Of a stretch of 45,105 bases of DNA, positions 41,168 through 44,923 are shown piece after piece (position 1 is the stretch's first letter; each line of letters begins with the position of its first letter). Source of the DNA: a virus; IMG/VR virus record IMGVR_UViG_3300044953_000216, positions 1 through 45,105 of that record; one strand, given 5' to 3'. A model generated the notes under the pieces. That model saw only the letters and a program-made list of their open reading frames with translations, did no database searches and had not been told where the DNA came from. The translations under genes and the position numbers were made by a program.

Positions 41168-41527
41168 TTAATTGTCTATATTTGGAACTTTATATCGATC
41201 TTTTTTTGTAGGATGAATTGCTACACTTTCATAATAAAATGATTGAACTTGATCAAACGTTTGGTTATATACCTTTATACCTCCTCTGGGATAATAAGGC
41301 ATTCCGACTTCGATATATTCGATTAAATAAATTTTATAAAATGATGGGTATTTTGCAACTACTACTCTAGTCCCCTTTTCTGTGAGAATATTTATTTTTT
41401 TATTTTCAGGAACATTAAAAAAAACTTTATGATGATTTCCACTTTCCGCATTTATTATCGATGAATAGACTGAATATGCAGACTCATTTATTTCTTCAAT
41501 TTTTTTAGGTTTAGACTTTTTCGGCAT
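41168..41527 (-). CDS. Small protein of unknown function with near-consensus promoter
   Basis: A 119-aa protein beginning MPKKSKPKKIEEINESAYSVYSSIINAESG, with beta segments HKVFFNVPENKKINILTEKGTRVVVAKYPSFYKIYLIEYIEVG and a polar end. The ATG at 41527 is chosen because a consensus promoter ends 7 nt before it; an upstream TTG in the same frame is itself the -35 element. The N-terminal MPKK(A/S)K matches that of the 111-aa protein at 40205, but the rest differs. No family recognised. Confidence 0.68.
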   Translation of the reverse strand: MPKKSKPKKIEEINESAYSVYSSIINAESGNHHKVFFNVPENKKINILTEKGTRVVVAKYPSFYKIYLIEYIEVGMPYYPRGGIKVYNQTFDQVQSFYYESVAIHPTKKDRYKVPNIDN

Positions 41528-41534
41528 ACACACT

Positions 41535-41563
41535 ATTATAGTTAATACACTATATCGTGTCAA
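41535..41563 (-). promoter_or_regulatory. Consensus sigma70 promoter (TTGACA-17-TATAAT), near-leaderless
   Basis: On the minus strand TTGACA (41558-41563) and TATAAT (41535-41540) are separated by exactly 17 nt, a perfect consensus match. Only 7 nt separate the -10 element from the ATG at 41527, so the transcript should start at or next to the start codon. The promoter overlaps the stop region of the upstream 56-aa gene. Confidence 0.85.
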
Positions 41564-41565
41564 CT

Positions 41566-41735
41566 TTATGGTGCTTTAGATGTCGATTCGGCTTCTTCTA
41601 CTACTGCTTTAATTTCACTTTCCAACTCTTTTATTTTCTCTTTATATCCCGCCGCGACATCCTTGAAATCTCTTTTTACATACAAGAGTTTCTCAGTCAA
41701 TTCATATACTTTTTTTCTGCTTCTATTTTTGTCAT
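41566..41735 (-). CDS. Small helical protein readable only through a -1 frameshift
   Basis: The ATG at 41735 gives MTKIEAEKK and then a stop at 41697. At 41709-41716 the zero frame reads GAA-AAA-AAG, that is A-AAA-AAG, the most efficient bacterial -1 slippery heptamer (known from dnaX). A -1 shift there continues VYELTEKLLYVKRDFKDVAAGY...KIKELESEIKAVVEEA to a TAA at 41566, giving a 56-aa amphipathic helix protein. No strong downstream hairpin or upstream Shine-Dalgarno-like stimulator is obvious. Possible explanations are programmed shifting, slippage by RNA polymerase on A7, a real loss-of-function indel, or a one-base sequence error. It begins 26 nt after the tmRNA 3' end. Confidence 0.6.
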
Positions 41736-41760
41736 AATTAATTTATTACTTTATTTAAAT

Positions 41761-42147
41761 TGGTGGACATGGAGGGAGTCGAACCCTCGTCTTCAACAAT
41801 AATCCTATGCCAGACTACATGTATATTTGATTTACAATTCTTAAAAACAATGATATAAATCAACAAAAGACATTGTTCTAAAGATTTATTAGTATACTCA
41901 ATCAACAACATAAATCAAATTGTCAATTTAGCCTGATGATATTCACCTAATATTATTATCAGACATCATGATATTAGATGTGGTGCCATTATTAGGCTGC
42001 CAATGCTACGGCATCGCGTGACACGAAGTCATAGCTGATTACATTATCTTCAGCAGTTAATGTTTTGATAGACGTTTAAAGAGGCCAACTATCATCCTCT
42101 ACATGCCTGACACGAACTTATTTCTGAATCGAAACCAGTACATGCCC
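41761..42147 (-). ncRNA. ssrA: Transfer-messenger RNA (tmRNA)
   Basis: This 387-nt RNA would rescue stalled ribosomes and tag the incomplete protein. The ends form a 7-bp acceptor stem, GGGCATG with CATGTCC, including the G3-U70 pair that identifies alanine, and a genome-encoded CCA. The T-arm is GAGGGTTCGACTCCCTC. The 5' part has the conserved TGGTTTCGATTC. A pseudoknot of the PK1 type is visible (GAGG/CCTC interlocked with GATAG/CTATC, plus-strand 42067-42099). The tag frame (41989-42054 plus stops) reads AEDNVISYDFVSRDAVALAA, followed by two TAA stops; A at position -4 before the resume codon is present. The ALAA end is a typical ClpXP degron. It lies 25 nt after tRNA-Gly and probably shares its promoter. 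Confidence 0.93.
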
Positions 42148-42172
42148 ATAAATTTTAAAAGAACGTTTAAAC

Positions 42173-42246
42173 TGGAGCGGGTAACCGGAATCGAACCGGT
42201 ACATCGACCTTGGCAAGGTTGTAGGCTGCCACTACATCATACCCGC
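42173..42246 (-). tRNA. tRNA-Gly (anticodon GCC)
   Basis: A complete cloverleaf: acceptor GCGGGTA/TACCCGC, D-arm GTAG...CTAC, anticodon loop TTGCCAA with GCC, T-arm ACCGG TTCGATT CCGGT, discriminator T and encoded CCA. It precedes the tmRNA by 25 nt in the same direction. It would read GGC and GGU codons. Confidence 0.95.
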
Positions 42247-42259
42247 GCTTCATTACATA

Positions 42260-42287
42260 AGTATATCTCGTTATTGAAAAGTGTCAA
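42260..42287 (-). promoter_or_regulatory. Sigma70 promoter for tRNA-Gly and tmRNA
   Basis: On the minus strand TTGACA (42282-42287) and TATACT (42260-42265) are separated by 16 nt, and the -10 element ends 13 nt before the tRNA 5' end. Only 25 nt separate the tRNA from the tmRNA, so both are probably made as one precursor. Confidence 0.8.
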
Positions 42288-42290
42288 ATA

Positions 42291-42506
42291 TTATTTTTCA
42301 TAACACCTTGACATTGTTAAAATCTGATCAATAGTCTCTTTAACTCTAATGCCGGGCCCATTTTGTGATGTGTTAATCACAGTATGTTTACCACTAGGAC
42401 TAGGTTCCATACTAATAGCTCTATCTAAATTGAATAGAATAGAAATATAAGTACGACTGTTATCGTGATTCAACTCTAATTGGTTTAATTTAATTAAGTG
42501 TGCCAT
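42291..42506 (-). CDS. Small protein, possibly FlbD-like
   Basis: A 71-aa protein: AHLIKLNQLELNHDNSRTYISILFNLDRAISMEPSPSGKHTVINT...GIRVKETIDQILTM. The order LIKL, a loop, an I-x-x-x-E-P strand, then a V-K-E-T-I-D-x-I helix resembles the short FlbD family (linked to flagellar loci in bacteria), with an insertion. The resemblance is suggestive, not firm. It has its own promoter and sits between a terminator and the tRNA-Gly promoter, so it is a single-gene unit. No Shine-Dalgarno is clear. Confidence 0.66.
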   Translation of the reverse strand: MAHLIKLNQLELNHDNSRTYISILFNLDRAISMEPSPSGKHTVINTSQNGPGIRVKETIDQILTMSRCYEK

Positions 42507-42519
42507 ATATTACTTTATC

Positions 42520-42548
42520 AGTATGGTATATAAGATTATATTTGTCAA
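42520..42548 (-). promoter_or_regulatory. Sigma70-type promoter for the 71-aa gene
   Basis: On the minus strand TTGACA (42543-42548) lies 17 nt from CATACT (42520-42525, four of six consensus bases). It starts 4 nt after the terminator stem of the upstream gene, and the expected leader is only about 6 nt. Confidence 0.65.
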
Positions 42549-42552
42549 CAAA

Positions 42553-42581
42553 AAAATCCGTTAGATTTTCCAACGGATTTT
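42553..42581 (-). terminator. Rho-independent terminator after the outer-membrane protein gene
   Basis: A 10-bp stem AAAATCCGTT/AACGGATTTT with a 9-nt loop is followed on the minus strand by a run of T. It lies 18 nt past the stop codon and directly before the next promoter. Confidence 0.88.
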
Positions 42582-42598
42582 ATCATTTATAATTTAGA

Positions 42599-43345
42599 TT
42601 AGAATGTCAAAGATAGACCTGCGGTATATTGAACTACACCATCATAGGAATACTTCTGACCTGCACTAACGTTGTTGATATAATCAACTCCTGCGAAAGG
42701 AGACAACTTATTCCAAAGAACAAACGCTACTCTTCCACCACCCTTGAATGCTTCATAATTTTCATAATGGGTGAATTCTACATATGGAGTAAGAGTCAGA
42801 TCTGCCCAACTAGTCAATCCAAATGTAAATGGTCGTTTACCACCGAAAGTAACACCTTGTTTTGTAACATCTGCAACAGCAGCGCTTCCAAGATTTAATC
42901 CAGTGATATCATATGTATATCCAACATATGGTGTTACAACTTTGTTCACTACCCACAACTTTTCGAAAGTAAGAGTTGTGTTGACTGTATTACGATCTTG
43001 ACCTTCAACGACATAATAGCCTGTTCCAGCAGCAACATTGACTGCCAACCAATCAGTAAGGTTCAAAGTCTTGTCCAAACCTGCTTGAAAAGCACTAAAC
43101 TTCTCATCCGAAGTTTGCGCGGACAAATTAAAATCGACATACTTAAACGGAGTAGACAATGCTACACTTCCATAAGCTGCACCTGGACTCAATTGAAGTC
43201 CTACAACATCGTATGTTGATTGATATCCGGCTTCGAACGTTACGCTTGGTTTTTCAGTTGGAAACAAAGATTCCACTGAGACGGCCCTTACTACCGTAAG
43301 TAAAGAAACCAGACCGATTACTACACTTGTTAATACTTTATTCAT
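42599..43345 (-). CDS. Outer-membrane beta-barrel protein
   Basis: A 248-aa protein with an N-terminal signal peptide (MNKVLTSVVIGLVSLLTVVRA, likely cut after VRA). Alternating beta strands follow, rich in aromatic and small residues: VTFEAGYQSTYDVVGLQL, AYGSVALSTPFKYVDFNLSAQTS, VVTPYVGYTYDITGLNL, LTLTPYVEFTHYENYEA, VQYTAGLSLTF. The final residue is phenylalanine, the usual barrel-assembly signal. About ten strands are plausible. It has a good ribosome site (AAAAGGAT), a promoter and a terminator of its own, so it is an independent unit. Insertion in the host outer membrane is expected, perhaps altering phage adsorption or permeability. It may be host-derived. Confidence 0.8.
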   Translation of the reverse strand: MNKVLTSVVIGLVSLLTVVRAVSVESLFPTEKPSVTFEAGYQSTYDVVGLQLSPGAAYGSVALSTPFKYVDFNLSAQTSDEKFSAFQAGLDKTLNLTDWLAVNVAAGTGYYVVEGQDRNTVNTTLTFEKLWVVNKVVTPYVGYTYDITGLNLGSAAVADVTKQGVTFGGKRPFTFGLTSWADLTLTPYVEFTHYENYEAFKGGGRVAFVLWNKLSPFAGVDYINNVSAGQKYSYDGVVQYTAGLSLTF

Positions 43346-43858: not shown

Positions 43859-44116
43859 TTATTGGGTTTTATTTATTAATTTTAACTTTTGTTGACAGGT
43901 TAATTGTTTGATTTGATATTCTCGTTTCATTGCTTCACTCTTGGTATCAAAACATTCACTATATACTAATCTAACGGGTAATCGTGTCTTAGTATATTTA
44001 GCACCACACCCTCTATTATGATTGCTAACTCGTTTTTCAACATTATTAGAATAACCACAATAGAGGGTGTTGTCCCGACAAATAACTATATAACAACAAT
44101 GATTCTTAACTATCAC
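43859..44116 (-). CDS. GIY-YIG endonuclease domain protein
   Basis: An 85-aa protein consisting of one GIY-YIG domain: CYIVICRDNTLYCGYSNNVEKRVSNHNRG (the GIY and YIG strands, with R after the second), GAKYTKTRLPVRLVYSECF, and the helix SEAMKREYQIKQL with the catalytic glutamate. Free-standing small proteins of this type (UvrC/YhbQ-like) are common in bacteria and phages. The start is GTG (44116), since the nearest upstream ATG is followed at once by a stop. It overlaps the end of the upstream gene by 11 nt and its own end overlaps the pilin-like frame. Confidence 0.85.
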   Translation of the reverse strand: MIVKNHCCYIVICRDNTLYCGYSNNVEKRVSNHNRGCGAKYTKTRLPVRLVYSECFDTKSEAMKREYQIKQLTCQQKLKLINKTQ

Positions 44117-44815: not shown

Positions 44816-44891
44816 TGGAGTTCCGTGTTGGATTTGCACCAACCTCTATTCGTCTTCAGCGAATCGCTTTCACTAGGTTAGCTTAACTGGG
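44816..44891 (-). tRNA. Degenerate tRNA-Phe-like sequence (anticodon GAA)
   Basis: The anticodon arm ATTCG-CTGAAGA-CGAAT (GAA), T-arm GTTGG-TGCAAAT-CCAAC, 3' acceptor strand ACGGAAC and CCA are all present. The 5' side is wrong: the bases that should pair with the acceptor strand (expected GTTCCGT) read CCCAGTT and scarcely pair, and the D-loop lacks the usual GG. It is likely a decayed or rearranged tRNA gene. Confidence 0.5.
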
Positions 44892-44923
44892 ATTTTTAAA
44901 TATAATTTATATACTTATATAAT

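Follow-up and report, generated by a model that had tools for sequence, protein, structure and literature searches.

A one-piece tmRNA gene shared by uncultured contractile-tailed phages

The window (the whole stretch of DNA analysed here, a linear IMG/VR record of 45,105 bases) represents part of the genome of an uncultured phage with a contractile tail. Its proteins match the sheath, baseplate wedge, SbcC-like exonuclease, primase, Holliday junction resolvase, PhoH and Hsp20 families of phages, from which the contig is recognised as belonging to a T4-like phage of the contractile-tailed type. The closest annotated phages are only distantly related, at about 32-51% protein identity: Mel-JY01, a phage of Microcystis, LR756508.1, an uncultured phage of 484 kb, and Flavobacterium phages. 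Mel-JY01 and LR756508.1 give the best or near-best matches for sheath, baseplate, SbcC-like exonuclease and primase, at about 32-48% identity. Flanked on both sides by phage genes, and with a downstream open reading frame (ORF) common to relatives, lies a complete one-piece tmRNA gene on which ARAGORN and Rfam agree (Table 1). The RF00023 match spans the full length of the model (positions 1-374) with 121.6 bits against a gathering score of 47 (E 3.7e-47), and the covariance model thus accepts the fold that a preliminary description had read from the letters; among sampled bacterial one-piece tmRNAs, which mostly score about 104-286 bits, this is in the lower range. As in the one-piece ssrA RNAs of that family, there is a tRNA-like domain with G3-U70, a P2 helix, four pseudoknots and a tag followed by a stop.

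Table 1. Positions of the tmRNA gene, its parts and the neighbouring features in the window
Feature	Position	Strand	Evidence
One-piece tmRNA (ssrA-like), 387 nt, 3' CCA encoded	41761..42147	-	RF00023, ARAGORN, covariation
Tag reading frame AEDNVISYDFVSRDAVALAA, then UAA UAA	41989..42054	-	ARAGORN; open frame and pN/pS in relatives
Acceptor 5' strand GGGCAUG, pairs with 41765-41771, holds G3-U70	42141..42147	-	covariation
T arm (41772-41788) and acceptor 3' strand (41765-41771), tRNA-like domain	41765..41788	-	Rfam, covariation
Helix P2 5' strand, pairs with 41807-41822	42101..42113	-	covariation
PK1, AGAGG/CCUCU and GAUAG/CUAUC	42067..42100	-	covariation
PK2	41933..41980	-	covariation
PK3	41883..41928	-	covariation
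PK4	41828..41882	-	covariation
tRNA-Gly(GCC), CCA encoded, 25 nt upstream of the tmRNA	42173..42246	-	ARAGORN; RF00005 51.1 bits
Sigma-70-like promoter TTGACA-16-TATACT	42260..42287	-	11/12 match; same string and spacing in L031

The acceptor stem (GGGCAUG/CAUGUCC) contains the alanine identity pair G3-U70 and runs into an encoded CCA end. Both halves of the tRNA-like domain stand at the ends of the gene in standard order, so the circularly permuted two-piece form does not apply. A tag-less form of the DS6A type, consisting of the tRNA-like domain only, was ruled out by the 387-nt length, the tag and the four pseudoknots. Nothing beyond the tmRNA and tRNAs was returned by the Rfam scan of the window.

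Relatives were traced in two ways, by way of viral contigs encoding relatives of PhoH and by scanning for the core of the tag. This gave 19 further complete tmRNAs in related IMG/VR contigs, all above the Rfam cut-off, and one more that is cut at its 5' side by a contig edge; where aligned, the tmRNAs of these 20 other viral contigs share about 67-78% nucleotide identity. With phage genes on both sides, the same gene in 20 related phage contigs and no integrase found in 20 contigs, the earlier statement that the tmRNA is phage-encoded holds, and the gene is conserved in phage relatives rather than a host remnant. For the fold, the helices of the acceptor, T arm, P2 and PK1-PK4 were first assigned in the window and then counted in 15 distinct sequences. 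Covariation is strong across the 83 pairs in 12 helices, the four pseudoknots among them: 50 of the pairs have changes on both sides and 89.8% of cells are paired, the latter figure leaning towards the window fold (the structure having been read from the window) and the two-sided changes being the stronger evidence. The covariation score of 0.438 compares with a shuffled mean of 0.206 (sd 0.010), was reached by none of 500 shuffles and exceeds the slid controls (at most 0.151).

The individual parts follow the same pattern. G3-U70 is present in 15 of 15 distinct sequences, with compensatory changes at four other acceptor pairs. Pairing reaches 98-100% of cells in P2 (8 pairs changed on both sides), 100% in PK1, where both stems show compensatory changes, and 97-100% in PK2 (10 pairs). 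The lower figures of PK3 (71-79%, 9 pairs changed on both sides) and PK4 (76-82%, 11 pairs) come from a less certain part of the MAFFT alignment, which is gapped at PK3. The tRNA-like domain, the P2 helix and all four pseudoknots are thereby shown to be kept by compensatory change, and the complete tmRNA with alanine pair and PK1 of the preliminary description is confirmed.

The tag, of 20 codons and closed by a UAAUAA double stop, had been contrasted with the 10 codons of the E. coli tag, and the comparison is correct. None of the 17 tags read has an interrupted frame, and lengths range from 18 to 21 codons, differing only by whole codons. Most tags follow the pattern A-E-D-N-V-I-S/A-Y-D-F, a variable middle and then VALAA or VAVAA, giving an ALAA or AVAA C-terminus; 15 of the 17 end in AA, the exceptions being AVAT (L035) and VVA (L038). 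The pN/pS ratio of the tag is 0.34 overall and 0.20 in the window and its four nearest relatives, as against 1.05 and 1.57 in the shifted frames, which contain 29 and 48 stops. Between the window and its nearest relative, L031, the tag differs by synonymous changes and one whole-codon insertion only. Because the frames are open, length changes come in whole codons and pN/pS lies far below that of the shifted frames, the tag is under purifying selection and kept as a peptide. Disruption of the frame in related phages, named earlier as an observation that would speak against a tmRNA, was not found, the frame being intact in every relative. The U-A-A preceding the resume codon is invariant in relatives. 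Drift of the C-terminus in L035 and L038, together with ACU as the resume codon in one member (L036), suggests that degradation by way of the tag may not be a strict requirement.

The tRNA-Gly(gcc) and the 25-nt gap that separates it from the tmRNA are as previously described, as is the promoter, the -10 box of which ends 13 nt before the tRNA. An identical promoter string stands at an equal distance before tRNA-Gly in L031; it is not recognisable in most other relatives. Co-transcription of tmRNA and tRNA-Gly from one promoter is inferred from this layout. The proposed pairing of the two genes under one promoter therefore stands as regards layout and promoter, but not as a dedicated two-gene unit. 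The nearest upstream tRNA is likewise tRNA-Gly(gcc) in L031, L037, L093/L104/L105, L097, L098/L100/L101/L103, L102 and L108, at distances from 9 nt to about 820 nt, with Ala, Gln, Gly, Ser, Leu, Pro and Val tRNAs farther upstream in relatives, and since these have further tRNAs upstream of tRNA-Gly the pair in the window is best seen as the end of a tRNA array. At 44821-44892 (-) lies a weak tRNA-like match (RF00005 31.9 bits, gathering score 29) with a poor acceptor stem, missed by ARAGORN; similarity to DNA at the tRNA-Cys of L003/L095 extends over 45 nt in its 3' part, and the match is possibly a decaying tRNA. A short ORF with a GIY-YIG nuclease domain (43859-44116 (-), Pfam 76.5 bits) adjoins the tRNA/tmRNA region and is a possible homing endonuclease.

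Downstream, an ORF starts about 20-30 nt past the tmRNA CCA in the close relatives L022 and L031, for which reason the tmRNA probably joins a longer transcript. The small conserved ORF at this place in the window (41560-41740 (-)) is out of frame with its ATG, which may reflect a genuine mutation or a mistake in sequencing or assembly; the ORF is intact in the 14 relatives checked. The tmRNA region is followed closely by a perfect promoter-like site, TTGACA-17-TATAAT, at 41535-41563 (-); within 41400-42900, promoter-like sites number about twice those in shuffles.

Phage tmRNAs have been listed for the mycobacteriophages Bxz1 and Wildcat and for Bacillus phage G (PMC4131195), and they also occur in Melnitz and pelagimyophages (PMC9004378, PMC7474061), in 402 of 18,146 phages (PMC9004378) and, along with SmpB, among huge phages (PMC7162821). 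Melnitz has no integrase, which it shares with the relatives described here, whereas its tmRNA is of the permuted two-piece form with a glutamine riboswitch and that of the window is one-piece. DNA similarity to the tmRNAs in 50,697 phage records was absent, tRNA genes alone being matched. Of the nearest annotated phages, Mel-JY01 has no tmRNA match above 17 bits and LR756508.1 has a different tmRNA of 447 nt (72 bits). The latter phage also contains a 112-nt tmRNA-like domain without a tag (414804-414915, 58 bits), with G3-U70 and a stable fold, similar in kind to the DS6A form. The tmRNA of the window is thus a new, well-supported family of an already known kind of phage tmRNA.

The tag had also been put forward as a pointer to the host lineage, which is not borne out. 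All 16 viral contigs that match the tag pattern hold a tmRNA (14 by ARAGORN, L102 and L107 by Rfam). Across 84,980 bacterial and archaeal genomes the pattern, which in this search is limited to tags with Glu or Asp at position 2 (unlike, for example, the cyanobacterial ANNIV... shape), has 32 matches, none of them in a tmRNA. In sampled bacteria the tags are mostly of 8-12 residues and different from the phage tags, one of 21 residues occurring in a Doudnabacteria genome, and the tag peptide has no match in phage records. As far as tested, the tag is specific to these phages and does not name the host. Two other routes to a host were tried and rejected: the sampled bacterial tmRNAs (no cyanobacterial genome among them) match the whole-RNA profile weakly and with no clear lineage, and of the phage relatives Mel-JY01, which has a cyanobacterial host, is best for most proteins with Flavobacterium phages close behind. 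No psbA was found in 23 records.

The locus probably encodes a functional tmRNA of an uncultured contractile-tailed phage that acts in trans-translation with host SmpB. The SmpB family has no match in 22 contigs (about 1.1 Mb of fragments, so that absence is not proof), with the control matched in 10 named genomes, which makes host SmpB the likely partner. Judged from sequence, the RNA most likely functions in trans-translation and borrows this protein from the host. It would be transcribed together with tRNA-Gly from the host-type promoter, processed to its CCA end and charged by host AlaRS through G3-U70. Host SmpB would then bring it to ribosomes that have stalled on mRNA that is cut or lacks a stop codon, where it would add Ala and the 20-residue tag to the stalled peptide, releasing the ribosome for phage translation and marking the fragment for a host protease via the C-terminal ALAA. 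The proposed rescue of stalled ribosomes with delivery to ClpXP is consistent with these features. Benefits to the phage could include ribosomes freed from cut host mRNA, amino-acid recycling and resistance to RNA-cutting defences. The tmRNA of phage Wildcat is its most highly expressed lytic gene (PMC7474061).

Since integration often takes place at tmRNA genes, and fragments of these genes are found in prophages (PMC9004378, PMC11915505), the gene might instead be a piece of host ssrA in a temperate phage, either copied by imprecise excision or forming the part of an attachment site that rebuilds the host gene. This is highly improbable and largely refuted: the gene is full length and lies among conserved phage genes, the ORF downstream of it recurs in relatives, the tmRNAs of the related contigs are divergent, no integrase was found in 20 contigs, and the tag pattern hit no tmRNA among the genomes searched. 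As has been proposed for the tag-less tRNA-like domain of phage DS6A, the RNA could be a decoy whose main effect is to compete for host SmpB or to block trans-translation by the host; a molecule of the DS6A type inhibits tmRNA, perhaps through SmpB titration (PMC4131195). In a pure decoy the tag and resume signal would be superfluous, yet the tag frame is under purifying selection with whole-codon indels, and this role is very unlikely. The tmRNA ends a tRNA array of variable content in relatives, and the window retains one tRNA and the doubtful remnant, as might be expected of a passenger that moves with a mobile array and serves no selected function in the phage, but covariation and codon-level constraint over many divergent relatives make this improbable too.

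A further possibility within trans-translation concerns the tag itself, the core of which, NVI[S/A]YDF, is unlike any bacterial tag found in the sampled genomes. Proteins rescued with such a phage-own, virus-specific tag might be handled differently from host-tagged ones, a rather unlikely reading, under which another adaptor or protease or slower degradation could, just as tentatively, be involved. If true, the phage would have a trans-translation pathway of its own that runs on host SmpB.

The analysis adds to the phage tmRNAs a family from uncultured phages, with 21 members including one that is cut off and with strong evidence of selection on both fold and tag. The family cautions against naming a host from the tag of a phage, and it offers clean material for asking why some phages bring a ribosome-rescue RNA but apparently not SmpB.
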